Below, piece after piece: positions 14,875-41,146 of a stretch of DNA of 44,430 nt; position 1 is the stretch's first letter; each line of letters opens with the position of its first letter. The notes below the pieces were generated by a model that made no database searches, had not been told where the DNA came from, and saw nothing but the letters and a program-made list of their open reading frames with translations. The stretch spans positions 1-44,430 of IMG/VR virus record IMGVR_UViG_3300008221_000011; one strand, given 5' to 3'. The position numbers and the translations under genes are program-made. This DNA comes from a virus.

Positions 14875-15143
14875 TCTTCTTCCTCCCCAAATCCTGCGAC
14901 TCTTACCCAAGCCTTGTTCATATCTTTATCAATAAAGGTATAAACATGTTGCTTATAAAACTCATGAAGTTTCTTTGTTCTCTTTCCGGCAATAGTCCAA
15001 GTAACTTTTCGATTCTTGGGTTTGCCGAAATCGTTAGGGTGCAATAACTTATGCGCTCTATATCGGTCGGCTGTTTGCATTCGCTCTTTATTCTCCATAG
15101 GAATTCCTTTTCTCTTGTATGTAGTGCTGTCTCCGCCTTTCAT
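14871..15143 (-). CDS. small basic protein, 90 aa
   Basis: Basic N-terminal two thirds (YKRKGIP, DRYRAHKLLHP, KNRKVTWTIAGKRTKKL) followed by a strand-rich end (HVYTFIDKDMNKAWVRVAGF). Ends EEEE from the downstream SD. It follows the JAMM peptidase with an ATGA overlap. May bind nucleic acid; no family recognised. Internal start at MENKERMQ is a weaker alternative. Confidence 0.5.
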   Translation of the reverse strand: MKGGDSTTYKRKGIPMENKERMQTADRYRAHKLLHPNDFGKPKNRKVTWTIAGKRTKKLHEFYKQHVYTFIDKDMNKAWVRVAGFGEEEE

Positions 15144-15586
15144 TCTTCTTCATCTCCTTTGTATTGGTGCTGTAATGTATATAATCCGTCTTTGTGAATA
15201 CATAAAACATTAGGTTCTTGATTGTTCCAATGTCCGAAATGGTCTTCGCCACCTAAAACATATGCTTCTTTCATTAATGGTTGCCAAATGTTTACAGTTC
15301 GCCAATCAGTGCCGCTAAAATAAGCCGCACCAAAAGGGTGTGTATGAATCCAACACTTAACAGGTAGTTTCATTCCTTCGGGAATTGTTTTAAAATCAAC
15401 AAAACCTGCTGTTCCATATGAAATATATAATTCGTTCTTTGCATCTATTACCACTTGAACTTCTAGTCCATTTAGAATTACGGTTGATGCGTTCCAAATA
15501 GCAGAATGAAATGATTCATCACTAAAATCTTTAGAATTATTAAATGCTTTATGTATTTCAGTTTCAATTGCTTCTTGATTATTCAT
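15140..15586 (-). CDS. JAMM/MPN+ (JAB) isopeptidase-like metalloprotease
   Basis: 148 aa. The zinc-binding motif H81-T-H83-P followed by S91-G-T-D94 is the complete JAMM signature H-x-H-x(7)-S-x-x-D, with a candidate catalytic Glu in the N-terminal half. JAMM enzymes remove ubiquitin or ubiquitin-like proteins; in tailed phages a related domain is fused to tail protein K. Here it is free-standing and lies 1 kb from an E1-like gene, and a Ubl-like protein with terminal GG is encoded 6.4 kb upstream, which favours the Ubl-processing role. Confidence 0.85.
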   Translation of the reverse strand: MNNQEAIETEIHKAFNNSKDFSDESFHSAIWNASTVILNGLEVQVVIDAKNELYISYGTAGFVDFKTIPEGMKLPVKCWIHTHPFGAAYFSGTDWRTVNIWQPLMKEAYVLGGEDHFGHWNNQEPNVLCIHKDGLYTLQHQYKGDEEE

Positions 15587-16625
15587 TGGCTACACCCCGT
15601 AGTTTGTCTAGTCTCGCTTGTAGTCTATTCGTCTTTCGTGCCTTTCTTGCTATCTTACGACGCTCACGGCGACTCATATTAGCAATACGGTATTCTTCAT
15701 CCTTTCGCTCTTTAGTTACTCTAGCGGCCTCCATAAGCAAGTCGCTGTGGTGAGGTTCTTTCAAATCGTGAATGTTCTCTAAAACCTTTGCTATTGCCCA
15801 AAAAGGAGCATTAAACTGTTCTCGCAATTCATCAATTGATTTCTCATAGAAAGCCAAAAGAACTTCCATTTCATTCAAATCATATGCTTCATTTGTAGAA
15901 TCATCTAAGGTTTTCATTCTTTTATCAACACTCTTGAGTAAGGTAACATCATCCTTTGATAGATGACGGGTAATTGGATTACCATGCTTTTCAATTAAAT
16001 CCTCTAATGCAGAATCAATCTTTACTGTCTTCGGCTTTGCGACGAATTCACCTTCTACTCGCATATATCGTTCTTTTCGCAACTTAAGGTATCGTTGATA
16101 GGTAGAGGATGCTGTTCGACTTGGTAATAGTTCCTTAATTAAATGGAAATCCCCTTTAAATTGATAATTAGATTGTAGAATTGTATCTTCCTCTTCTTTA
16201 GTCCAATTAGAACTAGTTCGGGTTTTGCTTTTCTTAGAGGTAGGTTTCTTTGTAGTAGAAACTTGAAGTTTTGTTATTTTCTCTAATTGTTCAATTTGCA
16301 AGGAAGCCGATTCTTTCGTCAGGCTACCATTAACACATTTAACATACAGTGCGTCTTCTAAGTTTTTTCGTTGTTTCTTATTACCTTCAGATAGAGATAA
16401 TCCTGCAATATACTTGCATTGTTTTCGTGTAGCGGGTTCTGTTTTCCAATTCATATTTTCACTTTCCTTTGCTGTTATTTGTTTAAACCTATTATATAGA
16501 TTCTGGTTTGTTGTTTTAATACCATACTGTGTTTGAACAAGCCTGTTTATTTTAGGATAGGTAAGTCCTTCTTCTCTTTTTTTAGCAATAAATTCTATTA
16601 CTTCGTCTGTCCATTTATTACTCAT
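15579..16625 (-). CDS. Myb/SANT-like DNA-binding protein, 348 aa
   Basis: Residues 1-50 (KWTDEVIEFIAKKREEGLTY onward) and about 138-185 (NWTKEEEDTILQSN, then ELLPSRTASSTYQRYLKL) both look like Myb/SANT repeats, with the W-T-x-E-E-E/D start and a recognition helix of S-R-T-x-x-x-x-x-x-R-Y type. A Lys/Ser/Thr-rich linker (TTKKPTSKKSKTRTSS) joins them. The C-terminal third is helical and ends in a very basic helix (SRRERRKIARKARKTNRLQ). Probably a viral transcription regulator or DNA-organising factor. It separates the E1-like and JAMM genes, overlapping both. Confidence 0.6.
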   Translation of the reverse strand: MSNKWTDEVIEFIAKKREEGLTYPKINRLVQTQYGIKTTNQNLYNRFKQITAKESENMNWKTEPATRKQCKYIAGLSLSEGNKKQRKNLEDALYVKCVNGSLTKESASLQIEQLEKITKLQVSTTKKPTSKKSKTRTSSNWTKEEEDTILQSNYQFKGDFHLIKELLPSRTASSTYQRYLKLRKERYMRVEGEFVAKPKTVKIDSALEDLIEKHGNPITRHLSKDDVTLLKSVDKRMKTLDDSTNEAYDLNEMEVLLAFYEKSIDELREQFNAPFWAIAKVLENIHDLKEPHHSDLLMEAARVTKERKDEEYRIANMSRRERRKIARKARKTNRLQARLDKLRGVANE

Positions 16626-17182
16626 ACATTCACAACCTTAAAATCACATACTTCTTCTTCATTCATGTATCGTTGAATCCATTGTGCGCCCATACCTGCA
16701 ATTGCGACTTGCATGAAATGAACCGCTTTGTTTGTTCCATCCCATGAATCTCCTTGACAACTAAATGAACCATCTTTACCTGCTAAAAGCATATCATACA
16801 TTTTAGGGTCGGCCTTGTGGCTCACAAGTGCGGCGTTCCTGCCCTGCGCTCGTAAGTCCAACCATTTAATACTTGTGTTGTATAAGGTGCGTCGAACACT
16901 CAAGTTATCTACGCAACAGATAACCAAATCAAATCCTTCCATTTGCTTTCCTGTAAGAATAGGAAACTTAGAATAGTGATTGACTGATTCATATGAATCC
17001 ATCATAACACTAGCCTTATTCTGCCCAACATGGGCCTTACTAAAGTTTTGATAAGTTAAGTTCTTTGTTTCAACTGAATCGGGGTCTGCAACAGTAATGT
17101 TGTATAGTCCGACCTTATCTAAATACTGCGTCAAGAATGACCCAATACCGCCTGTTCCAATTATTAATATTTTTCTATTCAT
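16622..17182 (-). CDS. ThiF/MoeB/E1-like adenylating enzyme
   Basis: 186 aa, shorter than MoeB/ThiF (about 245). Rossmann start ILIIGTGGIGS (residues 5-15), acidic D33-P-D35, the N41-L-T-Y-Q-N-F block, K56 and CCVDNLSVRR all match E1 adenylation sites that activate the C-terminal Gly of ubiquitin-like proteins. The CxxC zinc pairs of MoeB are missing; one Cys (SFSCQGDSW) could be the thioester residue. It activates presumably the Ubl-like protein at 22028-22228 and/or host SAMP-type modifiers. TFIIB lies directly upstream. Confidence 0.85.
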   Translation of the reverse strand: MNRKILIIGTGGIGSFLTQYLDKVGLYNITVADPDSVETKNLTYQNFSKAHVGQNKASVMMDSYESVNHYSKFPILTGKQMEGFDLVICCVDNLSVRRTLYNTSIKWLDLRAQGRNAALVSHKADPKMYDMLLAGKDGSFSCQGDSWDGTNKAVHFMQVAIAGMGAQWIQRYMNEEEVCDFKVVNV

Positions 17183-34213: not shown

Positions 34214-34429
34214 ATGGATTGGACAAATATAATAAAAGAAGAGGATAAAAACTTAAGGTATAAAAATGCAGATGCTATGAGTGAATTTTTGCTGAACTTG
34301 AATGATTTTGCTGAATATGCTAATGGAGATTCAGGGATTCAGGGATATATGAGTCCTTCATCTACTAAAATAAAACAATTATCTAGTATGCTTAAAGAAA
34401 TGGAAGAACTATTAAAACAGGGGCGTTAA
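34214..34429 (+). CDS. W-tagged small protein 1 (MDWTNIIKE), 71 aa
   Basis: First of 15 proteins starting with the M-x-W-x-x-I-x-K tag. The rest is helical (DAMSEFLLNLNDFAEYA, KIKQLSSMLKEMEELLKQG). AGGGG SD precedes ATG. No family known for the body; the tag suggests a common destination such as the procapsid. Confidence 0.6.
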   Translation: MDWTNIIKEEDKNLRYKNADAMSEFLLNLNDFAEYANGDSGIQGYMSPSSTKIKQLSSMLKEMEELLKQGR

Positions 34430-34431
34430 TA

Positions 34432-34716
34432 ATGACTTGGAAAGATATACTTAAAACACAGAAGCCCGATTACCTTGATTTTGATAAAGACGGAGATACA
34501 GAAGAACCTATGGTTGAAGCCATCAAAGATAGGGATAGTATTGATAAATCCCCTACTAGAAAACATTACACTAAAGACGGTAAAGAATGGACAGGTAAAA
34601 CTCATAAGATGCCTAATGGGAAACTAATGAGTGAAGACCCCCATAGTGAGAAAAGCGTAAGGCTTTATCATAAGGATGAATTAGCCTCTACAAAGCGTAG
34701 CGCATTTACACGGTGA
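34432..34716 (+). CDS. W-tagged small protein 2 (MTWKDILKT), 94 aa
   Basis: Tag at residues 1-8, then a polar, charged, low-complexity body (DFDKDGDTEEP, KHYTKDGKEWTGKTHK, HSEKSVRLYHKDEL) ending TKRSAFTR. The middle and end carry KMPNGKLMSED and K/R/H-rich segments reminiscent of phage structural or prohead-associated small proteins. Two bases after the stop of protein 1; no SD except within that stop region. Confidence 0.6.
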   Translation: MTWKDILKTQKPDYLDFDKDGDTEEPMVEAIKDRDSIDKSPTRKHYTKDGKEWTGKTHKMPNGKLMSEDPHSEKSVRLYHKDELASTKRSAFTR

Positions 34717-34721
34717 TTACT

Positions 34722-34988
34722 ATGACATGGAAAAAAATAATAAAAAGAGAATTAAGCCCGAATGAAGTAGAAGATAGTCCCGATGGTGGAAGCCAACTTA
34801 CCCATGAATGTGACATATGCAAAAAGAAAATAAAAATGTCTGGTGGAAATCTTATTGACGGCAAACTGTATTGTTTTGAATGTCAGAAGAAAAAATCCAA
34901 TGAAAGACTCAATGCTTCTAATAGAGACTTAGGAAACAAAAACAGACATCCTACTTCAAACCCAAATAACCCATATGGAAGTAACTGA
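34722..34988 (+). CDS. W-tagged small protein 3 with zinc finger (MTWKKIIKR), 88 aa
   Basis: Tag, then ECDICKKKIKMSGGNLIDG and YCFECQKK: two C-x-x-C pairs give one zinc site. The segment SPNEVEDSPDGG before it recurs as NEVEDSADLSG in the 37417-38499 protein. Start at 34722 because it yields the tag and GATTACT leader seen at other tagged starts. Ends in a Asn-rich stretch. Confidence 0.65.
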   Translation: MTWKKIIKRELSPNEVEDSPDGGSQLTHECDICKKKIKMSGGNLIDGKLYCFECQKKKSNERLNASNRDLGNKNRHPTSNPNNPYGSN

Positions 34989-34989
34989 T

Positions 34990-35103
34990 ATGACACGATG
35001 TAATTCATTAGACACTTGGTTTGATGACCAATCAAAGAAAGTTAATAAGGTTGAGAAGAAAACAAAGAAAGACTTTGTAACTGGAAAGGAAGTGAAGAAA
35101 TGA
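34990..35103 (+). CDS. small basic protein, 37 aa
   Basis: MTRCNSLDTWFDDQSKKVNK, then VEKKTKKDFVTGKEVKK. Lys-rich and probably flexible. It fills the gap between two tagged genes, with ATGA overlap at its end, which is the ground for calling it. It has D-T-W-F near the start but no tag. Confidence 0.5.
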   Translation: MTRCNSLDTWFDDQSKKVNKVEKKTKKDFVTGKEVKK

Positions 35104-35795
35104 CTTGGGAATATATATTAAAAGCAGACTTTTCATTTAGAGATGTCGTTAAAAACTCAAGAGGTGTTTATGCTGGTATTTTTGACCGTATTCAAGATAC
35201 TCCCGACCTTTCAAAATTAGGCGGTGCTGTATTAGGTGATATGATTAAATCACTTGCAGATGTTGAAGGTCTTACTGTTACCGATAAAAGAAAGGCGGCA
35301 GAAGTTGTTTTGATGGAACCTATTCTTATTGGTATTGATATGATGAATGACCCTTCAATGGAGGAAGATATTAATAATTTGCGTGAAAGTAGAGTAACTA
35401 ATATTAAACAAGAGGAACAAGATGACAAAGACGCACCTTCTAATTTAACAGATGCCCAAATGCAGACATTTGATACTCTTGCTAATGCCGCAGCAAATAA
35501 AGTAATTCCTGAAATGAAAAAAATTATCACTAACAAACTTAAAGACAAACTCGATGAGGAATTAAGCGGTCAAAAGATATATAATCTCACTCAAGAACTT
35601 ATTGAAGTTGTTTCAAGTGACGATTTTATTGGGTATGTTGGAGTTATATTAAGTGCATTAATTCGTAGAATGGTTAAAGAGTCAGAAGACAAGGCAAAAG
35701 AAACAGAACCAGATATTGATATTACCGATGATAATTTCTCCGAAGCATTTCAACAAGCCAACAAAATGGATTGGTTCAGTCACTTAAAGGAGTGA
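35100..35795 (+). CDS. W-tagged protein 4 (MTWEYILKA), second tag-like end, 231 aa
   Basis: Tag at residues 1-8 and a second one, MDWFSHLKE, as the very last nine residues. The body is helical and acidic (KRKAAEVVLMEPILIGIDMM, INNLRESRVTNIKQEE, EELIEVVSSDDFIGYVG). The C-terminal tag copy may be the fused start of a lost gene or a second binding peptide. SD GGAAGTGAAG precedes ATG. Family unknown. Confidence 0.65.
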   Translation: MTWEYILKADFSFRDVVKNSRGVYAGIFDRIQDTPDLSKLGGAVLGDMIKSLADVEGLTVTDKRKAAEVVLMEPILIGIDMMNDPSMEEDINNLRESRVTNIKQEEQDDKDAPSNLTDAQMQTFDTLANAAANKVIPEMKKIITNKLKDKLDEELSGQKIYNLTQELIEVVSSDDFIGYVGVILSALIRRMVKESEDKAKETEPDIDITDDNFSEAFQQANKMDWFSHLKE

Positions 35796-35801
35796 TTCCT
35801 T

Positions 35802-36284
35802 TTGTGGTGGGATATTCTAAAGAATGCCGAGTTGGGCAGTGAATCAACAGGTTCTACTTTAGATGCCTCCAAAATTAAAGTTAATATTCAAGACGATGAA
35901 TGTAAAAAGAAAATTCGAGAGTTAATAGACTCTCCATTAAGCGAAGGATATATCGAAGAAGGCCCATTTAGTGAAATGCCCGAAGAAGTGGCTTGTGAAT
36001 TTTTAAAAGATTTAAAGGTGATAGATAAAGATATTATGGGTCTGTTACCCGAAGCCCTACATGAAAAATATGGAGATGGAAGAAAAGCACAACTGTTCAT
36101 GGGATATACAATAGTGTGGATAATTAACATATCTAGCACACATGCAAATAAATTGATAGGATATTGTGAAATTAAAGGAAAAGAAGTTTTTGCGGTTGGT
36201 GTTGAAACATACATGAAATTCTTTCCAAAAGAATGGCGTGATGAGGATTTAAAAACTTATAAAGAATGGAGGAAACTTCTATGA
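35802..36284 (+). CDS. W-tagged protein 5 (TTG start, MWWDILKN), paralogue A, 160 aa
   Basis: First of three tandem paralogues sharing GSTLDASKIKVNI and a C-x-K-x-I/L-x-E-L-I segment just after the tag, then E-x-A-C-E-F/T-L. TTG start at 35802, AAGGAG SD 8 bases upstream; it is the only codon that provides the tag. Body alpha/beta with GYTIVWIINISSTHANKLIG and a C-terminal helix (EDLKTYKEWRKLL). Unknown family. Confidence 0.65.
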   Translation: MWWDILKNAELGSESTGSTLDASKIKVNIQDDECKKKIRELIDSPLSEGYIEEGPFSEMPEEVACEFLKDLKVIDKDIMGLLPEALHEKYGDGRKAQLFMGYTIVWIINISSTHANKLIGYCEIKGKEVFAVGVETYMKFFPKEWRDEDLKTYKEWRKLL

Positions 36285-36805
36285 GTTGGTTTAGTATTCT
36301 TAAAAAACTTACAGGTAAAGCCAAAAGTAAAGGCTCTACTCTCGATACGGATAGAATTAAAATTAATATTAAAGATGACTGTAAGGAAAAATTAAGAAAA
36401 CTTATTTGGTTTAATACAACAGAACCAGCACCCGATGATATTGCTCAACAAGCCGGTAATGGAGATACTTTAATTGATACTAAAGAATTTAATAAACTTC
36501 CTGAACAAATAGCATGTGAAACATTACAAGCATTGAAATCCCTTGATTTGGACAACCCTGTGTATGTAAACTTCCCCGATACAAAGAACGGCTGGGTGCT
36601 TCAAAGAATCTATTTTGAAAAACTAGGGAAAAATTATGCGCTTTGGGTGGGGGTGGACTTTGAACCAAGTCGAAGTAAAAGAATTGATTTTATGGAGGGT
36701 GATATTATTAGAGTTTATATTATAAATAAGGATGCGGCTGGAAGGTATGTGGCTTGGGTTAGGTTTCCTTTTTCCGACATTAAAAAATGGAATGATGCTT
36801 TATGA
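36281..36805 (+). CDS. W-tagged protein 6 (MSWFSILKK), paralogue B, 174 aa
   Basis: Shares with its neighbours KGSTLDTDRIKINIKDDC and the EQIACETLQ segment. Start moved from an upstream ATG to the one overlapping the previous stop (ATGA), restoring the tag, with GGAGGAAAC as SD. The core includes YALWVGVDFEPS and ends FSDIKKWNDAL. Gene duplicate of 35802 and 36802. Confidence 0.65.
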   Translation: MSWFSILKKLTGKAKSKGSTLDTDRIKINIKDDCKEKLRKLIWFNTTEPAPDDIAQQAGNGDTLIDTKEFNKLPEQIACETLQALKSLDLDNPVYVNFPDTKNGWVLQRIYFEKLGKNYALWVGVDFEPSRSKRIDFMEGDIIRVYIINKDAAGRYVAWVRFPFSDIKKWNDAL

Positions 36806-37287
36806 ATTGGTTTAATATTCTAAAAAACCTTAAAGGTAAAAGCAAAGCCACAGGCTCTACCTTAGATGCTTCAAAGATTAAAGTTAATATTGAAGACGGC
36901 CCTTGTAAGAAAAGATTAAAAGAACTTATTATTAGAGGTGCTACTTATAGCCAAACTGCTCGCGTTACTTCACTTTATGAGTATTTATCAGAAGAAACGG
37001 CTTGCCATATATTAGAACTAATAAAAAAATACGACCGAAATATTAAGAATAAAGTAGAAGATAAAAGGCGTGGAGAAGATAAAACTGAAGAATACACAAA
37101 AGACCATGAAATACATATATTTCATAGTTTCTTTAGCAACCTGCGGAGGGGGAAGAGGCACGAATTGTATAGCATACTGGTTTTTACGAAGTTGGAAACG
37201 CCTAATAGTGCAGTTGTTGACTTCGATTTAGTAATAGAATTAGATTTAAATTATGGTGGATATGAGAAATGGAGTTATGACTTATGA
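36802..37287 (+). CDS. W-tagged protein 7 (MNWFNILKN), paralogue C, 161 aa
   Basis: After the tag, ATGSTLDASKIKVNIEDGPC, then SEETACHILE as in paralogues A and B, and an end GGYEKWSYDL that matches KKWNDAL of B. ATGA overlap on both sides. The three copies differ most in the middle, where different domains seem to be present. Unknown family. Confidence 0.65.
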   Translation: MNWFNILKNLKGKSKATGSTLDASKIKVNIEDGPCKKRLKELIIRGATYSQTARVTSLYEYLSEETACHILELIKKYDRNIKNKVEDKRRGEDKTEEYTKDHEIHIFHSFFSNLRRGKRHELYSILVFTKLETPNSAVVDFDLVIELDLNYGGYEKWSYDL

Positions 37288-37454
37288 ATTGGTGGAATAT
37301 AATTAAAAACTGCTGTGATGCTTGCGGCAACTTGAATAAGGTGGCTGGCGGTGTAGCGTTTGGGGGTCACGGTAGTGACCCTTCAAGGTTCAACATTAAG
37401 TATGGAGGTGAGAAAGATGACGAAGACGAAGAAATCGACAATAACTCTAAGTAA
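37284..37454 (+). CDS. W-tagged small protein 8 (MNWWNIIKN), 56 aa
   Basis: Tag followed by CCDACGN, possibly a zinc-binding motif, then GGVAFGGHGSDPSRF and an acidic tail (EKDDEDEEIDNN). It overlaps the next gene by 38 bases in another frame. SD within the preceding gene; TTATGA overlap. Confidence 0.6.
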   Translation: MNWWNIIKNCCDACGNLNKVAGGVAFGGHGSDPSRFNIKYGGEKDDEDEEIDNNSK

Positions 37455-38499
37455 TGGAACTCAAGTTGAATTAAACGGTCAGTATGATTTTAAGAAATCA
37501 TATACTGATTGGATGACTACTTGTAAGGGAATCTCTAGTGCTGATATTTTAAGCGTAGGAAAAGAAGGAGAACCTAAACCTGCTAATTTATATTTACAAT
37601 TAGATGAGCATGTTACTGATAATTGGGTAAGACCAAACTCAACTAACAAAGGTAAGCAACAGGGTGCATTTAAACTTCTTGCAGCAATAAACGAATCAAT
37701 GACAACTAAAAAACTTTATACTGGTAAAGACTTAAAAGAGATTCAAAAATTCATTCGTAGAGTTTTAGTATTTAAGAAAGACAATTCATACAATCCTCAA
37801 AACATTTACTTTACTAGACCAACTAAGTTTACAGGTAGTGGTAAAGATTTAGAAATAATTGATGATAAGCCTATGGAAATTTACGGGCATTATGCTGATG
37901 ATTATTTCAAAGCAAAATATCCAGATAAAAAACAAGCACCTTCTTCTTGGTATAATAAGGCCAAAAATACTTCTAAGCCTCCTTTGTTTCAAGCACTCTT
38001 TGGTGGAACTTTAGTTACAACAGGCTTACTAGATGTATTGGTTGAAGCGGAAGCACAAATTAAAAATATGAAAATTACTCACCTTAGTTTCCAACCTGCT
38101 AGAATAAGTAACCTTGCAGGTATTCCTTCATTAAGAAAGGAAGTGCTACGAATACTTAAAAATAGAGGGTTGTTCAATAAAGGAACACCTAAATATAAGG
38201 AGATTGCTAGGATATTAGAAGATGTTTCTTTTGTTGTAGGTGATAAGAAAAATTCAAATGAAGTAGAAGATAGTGCTGATTTATCCGGATTGCCAAATGA
38301 GATTGAAACCTTCTCTTTTCAAAAATTAACTTCAAGCACAGTTGGAACTCTTTTAGCAACAGTAGTAGGAAAGGAACCAAAGAAGATTGGTGAATATTAT
38401 CTTAACATTAGAGGAAAGACAGTTGTTCCTGAAACTCCAAAAGTAAAAGAACCTTCCAAAGTTAAGAAGTCTTGGATAGAACAACTTTGGAGGGATTGA
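37417..38499 (+). CDS. unknown protein, 360 aa, probably virion-associated
   Basis: Start at MTKTKKSTITLSNG, SD GGAGGTGAG; an earlier ATG in frame lacks SD. Strand-rich first 40 residues, helical middle (EIQKFIRRVLVFKK), the hydrophobic segment LFQALFGGTLVTTGLLDVLV near residue 200 and a C-terminal strand. It lacks the N-terminal tag but ends KSWIEQLWRD, a distant match at its C-terminus. The DNA sits within the tagged-gene array, which suggests a shared process. No family recognised. Confidence 0.65.
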   Translation: MTKTKKSTITLSNGTQVELNGQYDFKKSYTDWMTTCKGISSADILSVGKEGEPKPANLYLQLDEHVTDNWVRPNSTNKGKQQGAFKLLAAINESMTTKKLYTGKDLKEIQKFIRRVLVFKKDNSYNPQNIYFTRPTKFTGSGKDLEIIDDKPMEIYGHYADDYFKAKYPDKKQAPSSWYNKAKNTSKPPLFQALFGGTLVTTGLLDVLVEAEAQIKNMKITHLSFQPARISNLAGIPSLRKEVLRILKNRGLFNKGTPKYKEIARILEDVSFVVGDKKNSNEVEDSADLSGLPNEIETFSFQKLTSSTVGTLLATVVGKEPKKIGEYYLNIRGKTVVPETPKVKEPSKVKKSWIEQLWRD

Positions 38500-38500
38500 T

Positions 38501-38812
38501 GTTTGGTTCAGTATTTTAAAGAGAAAGAAATTTAATTTTCAATTAGTCAAAGAAACGATTAGAAGAATTGTAAAAGAATTAGATGGTAAAGGAATCAACA
38601 CTAGAGACTTAGATGAAAAACTAATAACAACTTATACCGAAGTAGTTAAGGAAATAGGAACTAAAGAGGAAAAAGCAGGACTCAATAAATTAAAAGGCAA
38701 GCAAGAAAGTTTAAGAGCATATTCCAAATTACTAAGAAACTATGGTTATACTACAAAAGAACTAAGTGCAAATACTAGTGATTTAAAAACAACAATGTGG
38801 GTGAAAGAATGA
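38501..38812 (+). CDS. W-tagged protein 9 with start lost by a probable 1-base change, about 103 aa
   Basis: An open frame reading WFSILKRKKFNFQLVKETIR from 38504 to the TGA at 38812 has no normal start codon. An ATG at 38499-38501 overlaps the preceding TGA (TGATG) but is in another frame; one extra T in the TTT that follows would give MFWFSILKRKK, a perfect tag. The helical body (ETIRRIVKELD, DLDEKLITTYTEVVKEIG) and ATGA overlap with the next gene suggest it is real. Either a sequencing deletion in a homopolymer or a recent frameshift. Start given is nominal. Confidence 0.5.
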   Translation, partial: VWFSILKRKKFNFQLVKETIRRIVKELDGKGINTRDLDEKLITTYTEVVKEIGTKEEKAGLNKLKGKQESLRAYSKLLRNYGYTTKELSANTSDLKTTMWVKE

Positions 38813-39465
38813 TTACAAGAAAGAGATGCTCGTTTTGCCAACATGAAGGTAGAGAAGAACTTGAAGCGGCTATTGAACAAGGTGCGGCAAGTTGTGACGA
38901 TTTAGATTCAAGAAACGGGTGGAGAAGCGGAACTACTGCACAACACCAAAGAAACCACATGGGGGAATACACTAACAGTAGTAATCCTAAATGTAAGTTA
39001 TGCACCGACCCAATGCGTAAACATTATGAGGAAGCCCTTTCCAACGGTAATATATCAAGTGATGGTATTTCTCAAGCCTTAGACCTCACAAAAACACAGG
39101 TGCAACGGCACATGAAGCACCACTTAGCACCATTGGTGCAGCAATCCGCAGCCACCATGCTAGCGAAAAAGGAAGTTAATGAGATTGATTTACTTAGTGC
39201 GAATGTTCAACGCTTAGATGATAAACTCAACGAACTGTTCTTAGACATTGACTTAGAACCAAGACAGATTGATAGCCTTACTAAACTCGCAAAAGAAGTT
39301 CGAGAGTCATTAAAGTATCTACTTGAGTTCAAAGGCAAACTTGTTCACAAGAGACAAGATACAATTATTGTCGCACAGATGCAGGTTGTTCAAGAAGTGT
39401 TAGCACAGAACAATCCTGAGATTTGGCTTGATATTAAAAAGAAAATGCAGGAGAGATTACAATGA
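38809..39465 (+). CDS. small terminase-like zinc/HTH protein, 219 aa
   Basis: Start at MITRKRCSFC, in ATGA overlap. Two similar units each have C-x-x-C, then R-x-x-x-E-x-A-x-x-x-G, a helix-turn-helix and H-x-x-x-H: CSFCQHEGREELEAAIEQGA ... QHQRNHM and CKLCTDPMRKHYEEAL ... QRHMKHH. This duplicated C-C-H-H plus HTH layout is widespread in phage proteins called terminase small subunit. C-terminal half is helical (RLDDKLNELFLDIDLEPRQID). It would bind packaging sites; no large subunit is in the window. Confidence 0.6.
   Translation: MITRKRCSFCQHEGREELEAAIEQGAASCDDLDSRNGWRSGTTAQHQRNHMGEYTNSSNPKCKLCTDPMRKHYEEALSNGNISSDGISQALDLTKTQVQRHMKHHLAPLVQQSAATMLAKKEVNEIDLLSANVQRLDDKLNELFLDIDLEPRQIDSLTKLAKEVRESLKYLLEFKGKLVHKRQDTIIVAQMQVVQEVLAQNNPEIWLDIKKKMQERLQ
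39450..39465 (+). repeat. duplicated leader repeat, copy 1 (before protein 10)
   Basis: GGAGAGATTACAATGA, the SD plus start of a tagged gene, identical in four places; preceded by ATGC so the previous gene ends MQERLQ. Copies at 39766, 40208 and 40530, with a variant before 40014. Confidence 0.8.
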
Positions 39466-39761
39466 GTTGGGAAAATATATTAAAGAAAGATGATTGGTTT
39501 AATAATTACGGAGTTTTTCCGAGTAGCGAAGATTTTTTTGATATTTTTGACACCTACCAAATAATATTAGATAACGCACACATGAGACTTCTTATGAAAG
39601 ACAAACATGGGGTTTCTCTTTCCCTAATGCAAAAAGAAAAAACCAATAACCTACTAGATGAGGCCGAACAACAATTAGGAAAATTGAAACTATTAGATGA
39701 ACTTGATGGTTCAGAAGTTCAGTTTAAAGAAACTATGGATAAAATATATAGTTATCTTTGA
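39462..39761 (+). CDS. W-tagged small protein 10 (MSWENILKK), 99 aa
   Basis: Tag, then DDWFNNYGVF, a helix-rich acidic body (EDFFDIFDTYQIILDNAHMR, NLLDEAEQQLGKLKLLDEL). SD GGAGAGATT directly before ATG is shared with the genes at 39778, 40220 and 40542. No family recognised. Confidence 0.65.
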   Translation: MSWENILKKDDWFNNYGVFPSSEDFFDIFDTYQIILDNAHMRLLMKDKHGVSLSLMQKEKTNNLLDEAEQQLGKLKLLDELDGSEVQFKETMDKIYSYL

Positions 39762-39765
39762 TACA

Positions 39766-39781
39766 GGAGAGATTACAATGA
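39766..39781 (+). repeat. duplicated leader repeat, copy 2 (before protein 11)
   Basis: GGAGAGATTACAATGA, identical to copy 1. Here it follows a stop codon and a short ATACA gap, so the preceding gene is not extended by it. Confidence 0.8.
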
Positions 39782-40008
39782 GTTGGAAAGAAGAAATTAA
39801 GAAAGGTATTGCGGATAAAGAAGTGGCTCGACTCGGTGGCGATATGGATGCTATGCTCAAATATGCCATGCTTGAAATTTTACATTTGGTAGTCGGAGAT
39901 GACCAAGCAACATATGTAAAAGCATTGAAAAACCAAAGCCTCAAAGATTCTATTAAAGAAATTATCAATGAAACTAGACTACGAATTAACAAAAAATATA
40001 AAGAGTGA
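39778..40008 (+). CDS. W-tagged small protein 11 (MSWKEEIKK), 76 aa
   Basis: Tag is the most diverged (EE in place of D/S-I), followed by ADKEVARLGGDMDAMLKYAM and a helix KNQSLKDSIKEIINETRLRI. Start at 39778 is chosen for the GGAGAGATTACA leader and the tag; a longer frame begins inside the previous gene. Unknown function. Confidence 0.6.
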   Translation: MSWKEEIKKGIADKEVARLGGDMDAMLKYAMLEILHLVVGDDQATYVKALKNQSLKDSIKEIINETRLRINKKYKE

Positions 40009-40013
40009 TTACA

Positions 40014-40223
40014 ATGAATTGGCAAGATATATTGAAAAACAAAAATAATATGAATTTTATTACTCAACAAAGAAAGTATTTAGAAAGCACAACAGCATTA
40101 ACACAGGAACAAAAAGAAAAATTAGAAGATGCTCTTGATGCTATGCGACCTTTTGTCAATAGAGAAAACTTTCATGAAAAATACATTAAACCTTATTTGG
40201 AAATGCAGGAGAGATTACAATGA
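40014..40223 (+). CDS. W-tagged small protein 12 (MNWQDILKN), 69 aa
   Basis: Tag followed by Asn-rich NKNNMNFITQ, then helix TALTQEQKEKLEDALDAMR and the end PYLEMQERLQ, whose last residues are encoded by the GCAGGAGAGATTACAA leader of the next gene. The same MQERLQ end occurs in the 38809-39465 protein. Leader at 40001-40014 is GAGTGATTACA. Unknown function. Confidence 0.6.
   Translation: MNWQDILKNKNNMNFITQQRKYLESTTALTQEQKEKLEDALDAMRPFVNRENFHEKYIKPYLEMQERLQ
40208..40223 (+). repeat. duplicated leader repeat, copy 3 (before protein 13)
   Basis: GGAGAGATTACAATGA, identical; with the preceding ATGCA it again codes the MQERLQ end of the gene before. Confidence 0.8.
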
Positions 40224-40528
40224 ATTGGCAAGACATAGTAAAAGAAGATAGAACCGATGGTGCTAGATTTGTGCCTAGAGGTAAAAAATATGACGAAAGA
40301 CTCGACAATTTAATTTATTTTGTAAATCAAAATTTTCCAGAATTAAAAGAAAATATGATACAGTTTGAAAAAGAATGGGGCAGAATTGTTCAAGAAAATA
40401 CTGAAGAATATGAAAAAGATGGAAATAATAATAAAGCCATAAGGGAATTAATTGGATTATCAAATTTATTTACACGAAAGAACGGTGTAAGAGGGGCATA
40501 CCTCGATATAATTAATAGCATTGATTGA
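40220..40528 (+). CDS. W-tagged small protein 13 (MNWQDIVKE), 102 aa
   Basis: Tag, then basic residues (RFVPRGKKYDERLDNL) and helical body (KENMIQFEKEWGRIVQENTE, KAIRELIGLSNLFTRKNG). ATGA overlap at the start with the previous gene. No family recognised. Confidence 0.65.
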   Translation: MNWQDIVKEDRTDGARFVPRGKKYDERLDNLIYFVNQNFPELKENMIQFEKEWGRIVQENTEEYEKDGNNNKAIRELIGLSNLFTRKNGVRGAYLDIINSID

Positions 40529-40529
40529 A

Positions 40530-40545
40530 GGAGAGATTACAATGA
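40530..40545 (+). repeat. duplicated leader repeat, copy 4 (before protein 14)
   Basis: GGAGAGATTACAATGA, identical; preceded by a TGA stop and AA, so the repeat is free of coding constraint from upstream yet is conserved. Confidence 0.8.
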
Positions 40546-40859
40546 GTTGGAAAAGTATATTGAAAGCCTACAAAGACGGGCAAGTAAAAGAAGCATACTT
40601 AGAACTTGATAAATACATTAGGATTTCTTGCGGAATAGTTGGTGATGATTTCGGAGAACCCGATACTTTAACTACATTTGCAGGCAGATTAAAAACTTTA
40701 AAAGAAATTATGCTCGATGGTATGCGTGGCGACTATTATGCACAACTTAGTAAAATTGAAGACTATGCTGATGAATGGCCTAAGAACATGCAATCGCAAC
40801 TTAGCAAATTATCAAATAACTTATTTAAAATGTTAGATTGGAGGGATAAGAATTCATGA
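40542..40859 (+). CDS. W-tagged small protein 14 (MSWKSILKA), 105 aa
   Basis: Tag, then YKDGQVKEAYLELDKYI, a TPR-like helix pair, and LTTFAGRLKTLKEIMLDG; the end MLDWRDKNS overlaps the next gene. Start moved to 40542, with the GGAGAGATTACA leader directly upstream. Unknown function. Confidence 0.65.
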   Translation: MSWKSILKAYKDGQVKEAYLELDKYIRISCGIVGDDFGEPDTLTTFAGRLKTLKEIMLDGMRGDYYAQLSKIEDYADEWPKNMQSQLSKLSNNLFKMLDWRDKNS

Positions 40860-41146
40860 CTTGGCAAGATATATTAAAAACAGAAACTAGTAAGTTGGCT
40901 AACTTTAGGAGATTTCAATTCAAACTTAGTAAACAAATGAAAAAGTTTGGAAACCACAGTAAAGAAGCACAGGTTGTTTGGTCGGATTTTATGAAAACAA
41001 AACCTTCGGAAAAAGAACAAAAAGAATTTATTACTTTCTTTGATGAAGAACTTGAGAGAAACAAACCACCTCTCACTCCTAAACAGAAACAGATGAAGGT
41101 AATTGCAGCAAAGCAAAAAGCGGCTAGAGAAGCATTAGGTGAGTAA
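40856..41146 (+). CDS. W-tagged small protein 15 (MTWQDILKT), 96 aa
   Basis: Tag, then a basic helical body (FRRFQFKLSKQMKKFGNHSK) and the C-terminal SEKEQKEFITFFDEELERNK plus a Lys/Gln-rich tail (LTPKQKQMKVIAAKQKAAR). Lys-rich and DNA-condensing in appearance. ATGA overlap with protein 14; the SD is GGAGGGATAAG. Unknown function. Confidence 0.65.
   Translation: MTWQDILKTETSKLANFRRFQFKLSKQMKKFGNHSKEAQVVWSDFMKTKPSEKEQKEFITFFDEELERNKPPLTPKQKQMKVIAAKQKAAREALGE

Follow-up and report, generated by a model that had tools for sequence, protein, structure and literature searches.

A short peptide shared by many small proteins and by the scaffold C-terminus of magroviruses as a probable procapsid-docking motif

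Why should a virus start many small proteins, most of them without similarity in their bodies, with the same eight residues? The question is raised by a 44,430-base virus record from IMG/VR (IMGVR_UViG_3300008221_000011, referred to here as the window), a 44 kb fragment of a larger genome, in which an earlier note described a tag, M-[TSN]-W-x-x-I-[LIV]-K, at the start of 15 neighboring genes and likened it to the signal that leads internal proteins into the head of T4-like phages. We consider it likely that the tag is a procapsid-docking motif, which would recruit proteins into the head of a magrovirus so that they are delivered with the DNA in the manner of T4 internal proteins. The exact pattern M-x-W-x-x-[ILVM]-[ILVM]-[KR], read from an ATG, was found at 12 of the 15 sites (34214, 34432, 34722, 35100, 36281, 36802, 37284, 39462, 40014, 40220, 40542 and 40856), all within 34.2 to 40.9 kb and all on the plus strand. 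The rest of the window, scanned on both strands, gave no further match to the pattern, and a third-order Markov null predicted 0.135 matches per strand, with a maximum of 2 in 200.

The virus itself can be placed. Members of the order Magrovirales have genomes of ~90 to 100 kb that carry PolB, RFC, TFB, ligase, GroEL and SF1 helicase genes on one strand and the morphogenesis genes on the opposite strand (PMC10768690), and their hosts are Poseidoniales (Marine Group II) archaea (PMC10768690, PMC10160649). Indeed, the minus strand of the left 33 kb of the window encodes proteins with Pfam matches to a family B DNA polymerase, RFC clamp loader, ATP-dependent DNA ligase, Cpn60 chaperonin, TFIIB-type zinc ribbon, ribonucleotide reductase and UvrD helicase, whereas the late genes begin at 34.2 kb on the plus strand, so that early and late blocks are oppositely oriented. 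Since gene content and two-strand layout match those of the group, we assign the window to a magrovirus of ~95 kb. Contigs as long as 96 kb carried relatives of the UvrD helicase with 55 to 80% identity. A search of viral contigs with the 709-residue protein of the window found no relatives, and the UvrD helicase and the major capsid protein (MCP) served as queries instead; close relatives of the window virus were also not found among GenBank phage records. Magrovirus contigs (L224 to L227) were seen in GTDB metagenome-assembled genomes labeled Maricaulis and Altibacter, but these are evident binning errors, and the bins are therefore uninformative on the host.

Comparison with these relatives establishes the motif, its conservation and its restriction to the head region. 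All of the 20 large relative records had the tag pattern, typically with 7 to 15 standard copies in each genome, on the strand that does not carry the replication genes, whereas reversed control patterns had no match in the same records; 8 more distant relatives had the tag as well. The proteomes of 13 genomes contained 230 tagged late-strand genes in 149 families, 106 of which were single-genome clusters, with 10 to 24 tagged proteins per genome. Standard tags were found 175 times on the late strand and once on the early strand (Fisher p = 5e-54). With terminase, portal, S78 prohead protease and MCP assigned by PHROGs and Pfam (the MCP matches the SU10_MCP and major head protein families), the share of tagged genes was 45% between the late start and TerL, 43% between TerL and portal, 8% between portal and MCP and 13% between MCP and a GTPase-like gene; it was 2% in the tail module and zero past it, and among early-strand genes it was 0.4%. 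Clustering near these head genes, as the earlier note would have it, was true of every relative tested. A further 21 virus records from outside the group, with more distant helicases, had no match to the tag. A blind DNA scan for the pattern in 2.9 million viral contigs of IMG/VR gave 103 stretches; 65 of the 80 loci examined had at least three magrovirus protein families, and the remainder were mostly short pieces with several tags, with ~7 that look like single chance matches. By this measure, multi-tag loci appear to be restricted to magroviruses.

If the peptide has a function in the head, where else does it occur? A search with M.W..[ILV].[KR] in all proteins of the 13 genomes gave 193 matches, 173 of them at residue 1. 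The other 20 were confined to the C-termini of two proteins, the prohead protease (10 of 10 genomes) and the protein of cluster 52 (10 of 10), whereas shuffled proteins gave an expectation of 3.6 non-N-terminal matches at random places. In all ten genomes that have it, the protease ends in ...EMDWSDIHKMVGG or close variants. The cluster 52 protein, a head-module protein of 75 to 92 residues located between portal and a late ligase gene, ends in ...SMDWSDIHKMV, and the C-terminal form of the motif can be written M-[DS]-W-x-[DE]-I-H-K. The motif is kept in 78 of 80 protease loci picked by MCP similarity, and the other two have ELDWSDIHK; in 55 scaffold sequences, its Met and Trp are invariant at a place where a start codon serves no purpose. 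Distant relatives, with MCP identities of ~45 to 65%, have proteases ending in MSWDEIHDLF, MSWAEINSFV, MSWDEINELV, MDWNDINALV, MDWADIHNLV and similar sequences, and their homologues of the cluster 52 protein end in MDWDELNELV, MDWKDIDELV and similar sequences; the exceptions are one protease with LSWGDIHNL and one cluster 52 protein with MSFDDMAKI. M-x-W-x-[DE]-[IL] is therefore the widely kept core.

One of the two C-terminal copies lies on what looks like a scaffold. The N-terminal domain of the protease matched Peptidase_S78 in Pfam (E = 6e-9) and a head maturation protease in PHROGs (E = 7e-15). Just past this domain, the gene has an invariant internal Met (MSKLEKALAELD), preceded at a near-fixed distance by a conserved ribosome-binding sequence (AGGTGA, GAGG or GGAAGTGA). 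The internal start is thus established as a conserved feature, and the ribosome-binding site is kept while the residues encoded by the same stretch vary (KVK, EVK, EAK, TGEK), which points to selection on the internal start. Judged by its sequence, the protease gene would nest a separate scaffold that begins at this start. AlphaFold2 predicted the nested product of ~226 residues to begin with a short helix and a disordered acidic stretch, followed by an 80-residue helix (predicted local distance difference test [pLDDT] about 93 to 95) and two short terminal helices, the last of which lies on the motif (pLDDT about 75 to 78; predicted template modeling score 0.28). Foldseek found no match to the scaffold model, and searches of PDB sequences with MCP and protease profiles found none either.

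These observations suggest the following mechanism. The motif M-x-W-x-x-[IL]-[ILV]-K would dock proteins in the assembling procapsid, most plausibly on the inner surface of the MCP at the site used by the scaffold. During assembly, the scaffold (the C-terminal half of the protease gene), the protease and the cluster 52 protein would present the motif at the C-terminus. The 10 to 24 other proteins per genome would present it at the N-terminus and hence be enclosed in the head, after which they would enter the next host along with the DNA and act there early in infection or in counter-defence. We infer that N- and C-terminal copies are one functional motif, and the MCP as receptor, encapsidation, ejection and the functions of the cargo are proposed on the same line of reasoning. 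A broader claim, to which we incline with less assurance, is that the motif is a universal code for admission to the head, placed C-terminally in scaffold, protease and accessory protein and N-terminally on a fast-changing set of well above 100 families that are packed and injected, so that each particle would carry a dozen or more effectors. The earlier suggestion of a T4-like head-targeting signal in an archaeal virus is supported by the C-terminal copies on protease/scaffold and cluster 52 and their lack in the interior of any other protein of the 13 genomes, and it gains further strength from the absence of the tag in the 21 outside records and from the magrovirus-only multi-tag loci of the blind scan.

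Several points weigh against it. The case is built on sequence and single-chain modeling, from which virion content and binding are proposed. The C-terminal copies diverge past position 6 (I-H-K, I-N-x or I-D-E) from the N-terminal I-L-K, and thus binding common to both ends is argued from similarity. The AlphaFold2 model of the MCP (pLDDT 51) was too poor for inspection of a pocket. Few cargo bodies have a recognizable function. Finally, the window ends upstream of its own protease and MCP genes, and the scaffold argument, that is, C-terminal copies and nested start, therefore comes from relatives.

The density of tags, which peaks around TerL and portal, would also be expected if the tag docked helpers on portal, terminase or the host membrane and these helpers stayed outside the virion. 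A short amphipathic helix with a Trp could bind several partners, and the virion location of the tagged proteins is itself presumed. However, in all known relatives the protease/scaffold with the same motif works within the procapsid, and the fast turnover of families (149, with 106 in single genomes) is like that of T4 internal proteins and unlike that of assembly factors. A platform on the membrane is further opposed by the solubility of the tagged proteins: only 0.9% have transmembrane-like segments, compared with 11.6% of other late proteins. The tagged proteins are also small (median body, 107 residues) and highly charged, with a K+R content of 18%, compared with 13% in other late proteins, and their size, solubility and charge count in favor of the cargo reading. 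A membrane anchor was judged unlikely because the tagged proteins are soluble and the scaffold has the same motif, and we regard docking outside the virion as a whole as unlikely.

Could the tag instead bind a host factor common to late proteins, as a degron, a chaperone hook or a hook for the host polymerase? The searches for the tag covered viral sequences, which leaves some room for such a factor, but the tag is confined to the head-gene stretch rather than present on all late or early genes, and the motif is common to the prohead protease and the scaffold C-terminus. We consider this very improbable. Scans of 134 tagged proteins with Pfam, PHROGs and PADLOC gave isolated matches only (PAP2-like phosphatase, pentapeptide repeats) and revealed no common function, and some of the tagged proteins have zinc ribbons.

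Selection on the tag was assessed at the level of the peptide. Among 175 tags, M1 and W3 are constant (by the search pattern) and I6, L7 and K8 almost constant; S/T/N, K/E/Q and D/N/E are favored at positions 2, 4 and 5, respectively, and information drops sharply past position 8. Across 123 pairs of orthologues, each pair from different genomes, identity was 91% at the core residues W, I, L and K, 51% in the bodies and 35% at the variable tag positions, and the core was still 92% identical in pairs with a body identity below 45%. Since the pairs were drawn from tag-bearing genes, the identity of W is fixed by the selection of the set; even so, the contrast of the core with the bodies and with positions 2, 4 and 5 stands in these alignments. 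An alignment of 134 family representatives had MxWxxILK as its sole consensus. The codons of the 175 tags vary as the earlier note had said, with ATA, ATT and ATC for Ile, all six codons for Leu and AAA and AAG for Lys, a finding that is qualified locally by the duplication described below. Selection thus acts on the peptide. That the peptide is jobless and the tag a translation leader, either a favored start context or a duplicated cassette of ribosome site plus start, is scarcely credible, and both the C-terminal copies and the variety of codons led to its rejection: some copies do have common DNA across the start (up to 23 nucleotides in the window and 30 in one relative), but the residues are fixed while synonymous codons vary freely, Shine-Dalgarno-like sites are similar in frequency at untagged (0.63) and tagged (0.70) starts, and the same residues, Met included, vary hardly or not at all at two protein C-termini, at which nothing initiates.

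The block in the window has the following features, in window coordinates.

34214-34429, plus strand: tagged gene, MDWTNIIK, 71 residues
34432-34716, plus strand: tagged gene, MTWKDILK, 94 residues
34722-34988, plus strand: tagged gene, MTWKKIIK, 88 residues, zinc-ribbon-like body (CxxC...CxxC); only a sub-threshold Pfam match, DUF4428 (E = 0.003)
35100-35795, plus strand: tagged gene, MTWEYILK, 231 residues; tagged orthologues in two relatives
35766-35792, plus strand: tag-like copy MDWFSHLKE at the C-terminal end of the 35100 protein
35802-36284, plus strand: variant-tag gene, (M)WWDILK, TTG start, 160 residues; paralogue of the 36281 and 36802 genes
36281-36805, plus strand: tagged gene, MSWFSILK, 174 residues
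36802-37287, plus strand: tagged gene, MNWFNILK, 161 residues
37284-37454, plus strand: tagged gene, MNWWNIIK, 56 residues; kept in relatives
37402-38499, plus strand: untagged conserved protein of the p484 family; family in 13 of 13 genomes
38501-38812, plus strand: start-less open frame, VWFSILK..., 103 codons
38809-39465, plus strand: untagged conserved zinc-finger protein; family in 13 of 13 genomes
39462-39761, plus strand: tagged gene, MSWENILK, 99 residues
39778-40008, plus strand: variant-tag gene, MSWKEEIK, 76 residues
40014-40223, plus strand: tagged gene, MNWQDILK, 69 residues
40220-40528, plus strand: tagged gene, MNWQDIVK, 102 residues
40542-40859, plus strand: tagged gene, MSWKSILK, 105 residues; tagged orthologues in two relatives
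40856-41146, plus strand: tagged gene, MTWQDILK, 96 residues

The count of 15 tagged genes thus needs qualification, since three of the sites are variants. At 35802, the tag follows a TTG start and is one residue short, a form common in relatives (MWKDILK, MWWEILK); 39778 reads MSWKEEIK; and at 38501, the open frame has no ATG, GTG or TTG in place, an ATG at 38500 being out of frame. The claim that the bodies are unrelated likewise stood for most of the set but not for 35802, 36281 and 36802, which are paralogues with 35 to 46% identity among themselves; comparison of the remaining bodies of the 15 sites detected no similarity, and only the tag is common to them. Starts at 39462, 39778, 40220, 40542 and, in part, 40014 have the upstream DNA GGAGAGATTACA in common, and the start region GGAGAGATTACA-ATG-ARY-TGG is near-identical at 39448-39474, 39764-39790, 40000-40026, 40206-40232 and 40528-40554; in two of the five copies, the same DNA encodes the C-terminus of the upstream gene, MQERLQ. 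Recent duplication of a stretch of ribosome site plus tag therefore contributed in that part of the window, and because five starts have GGAGAGATTACA in common, we take new tagged genes to arise sometimes by copying of this stretch. Such an apparently duplicating cassette could help tagged genes to multiply. No conserved residue was found after position 8 in the 175 tags, and thus no consensus cleavage site is visible.

Both untagged proteins of the block have C-termini that resemble the motif. The p484 protein ends in KSWIEQLWRD in the window (38467-38496) and in KSWMDILRN, KSWQDILRW or KSWEEILKC in relatives, which are looser tag-like sequences. The zinc-finger protein, a possible candidate for the small terminase, ends in NPEIWLDIKKKMQERLQ (WLDIKKKM) with a spacing similar to that of WSDIHKMV; its likeness may be due to chance or mark another docking segment. 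These looser likenesses (KSWxE[IL]LR in p484) are outside the evidence counted.

Other genes near the subject deserve mention. The late strand encodes, immediately ahead of the prohead protease, a second ATP-dependent DNA ligase-like protein of ~830 residues (DNA_ligase_A_M, E = 3e-28; L107:16201-18687, minus strand, in genome G009), which is separate from the early ligase; nine other genomes have it in the equivalent position. Its presence in the head module was unexpected. Just after the MCP gene, ten genomes have a gene for a conserved GTPase-like protein of ~220 residues (L107:10345-11004, minus strand, in G009) with a weak MMR_HSR1 match below the cut-off, and in several of them tagged genes flank it on one or both sides. 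In the early part of the window, a ThiF-family E1-like protein (Pfam ThiF, E = 6e-20) and a 148-residue protein with an apparent JAMM metalloprotease motif, HTHPFGAAYFSGTD, and no Pfam match are encoded two genes apart (15140-15586 and 16622-17182, both minus strand). Their sequences suggest a virus-borne pair for ubiquitin-like conjugation and deconjugation.

The hosts of magroviruses are among the most abundant archaea in the surface ocean; the viruses themselves have never been cultured, and most of their proteins are without an assigned role. No earlier description of the tag was found in the papers that could be searched, and the earlier note knew of no such tag in archaeal viruses. Should the tag indeed mark proteins for entry into the head, it would be, to the extent of our search, the first signal of capsid targeting from an archaeal virus. 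One class, virion cargo, would then take in roughly a tenth to a fifth of the genes of each genome; a simple sequence test would exist for proteins injected by an archaeal virus; and the search for counter-defence or host-takeover proteins would have a place to begin. It would also be a case of cargo that visibly uses the docking motif of the scaffold itself, and a laboratory system could use the tag as a minimal peptide to bring foreign proteins inside a virus shell. Two traits are unusual: the tag is widespread (149 families in 13 genomes), and the scaffold itself ends in the motif.

How does this compare with known systems? In herpesviruses, the scaffold gene UL26.5 starts inside the protease gene UL26, and the scaffold C-termini bind the MCP (PMC12474303). 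On sequence evidence, the magrovirus protease gene would be built alike, with the protease in the N-terminal half, the scaffold in the C-terminal half, an internal start and a C-terminal segment that presumably binds the MCP. The phage parallel of such a nested protease/scaffold gene is C/Nu3 of lambda. For neither UL26/UL26.5 nor C/Nu3 do we know of a set of cargo proteins that borrows the C-terminal capsid-binding motif at the N-terminus. Partners of Nu3 include C and the capsid protein E (PMC3224144).

Encapsulins load unrelated cargo by peptides of ~10 residues, located at either terminus, that bind a hydrophobic pocket inside a shell of HK97 fold (PMC7355545). The magrovirus motif, too, occurs at the N- or the C-terminus. 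However, encapsulins are cellular compartments with few cargoes, whereas here the shell is the head of a DNA virus in which the scaffold is proposed to compete for the same site, and the peptide sequences differ. Giant phages such as SPN3US and its phiKZ-like relatives pack many different ejection proteins into the head, some of them with common N-terminal propeptides (PMC5694885); in contrast to the magrovirus tag, these propeptides are mostly longer than 100 residues and contain no single short motif.

The capsid-targeting sequence (CTS) of the internal proteins of T4 was reportedly described by Mullaney and Black in 1996. To our knowledge, it does not contain the M-x-W-x-x-I-L-K motif. It is N-terminal on small, fast-evolving, otherwise unrelated internal proteins, which it directs to the core of the prohead; one of these, IPI*, is injected and blocks a host nuclease (PMC3012670, PMC5694885). 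Like the CTS, the magrovirus tag is a short N-terminal sequence on otherwise unrelated proteins, 134 representatives of which align only at MxWxxILK, and the tagged genes lie in a head assembly region that also encodes a prohead protease. The CTS is a propeptide of 10 to 20 residues that is cut by the protease, and its sequence differs from that of the tag, after which no consensus cleavage site is visible; moreover, the magrovirus motif is present on 10 to 24 proteins per genome and is also the C-terminal end of protease, scaffold and a third protein of the head. At 8 to 20 residues, homology to the CTS could hardly be shown. The magrovirus tag would thus work like a capsid-targeting sequence, and its likeness to that of T4 is one of proposed use.

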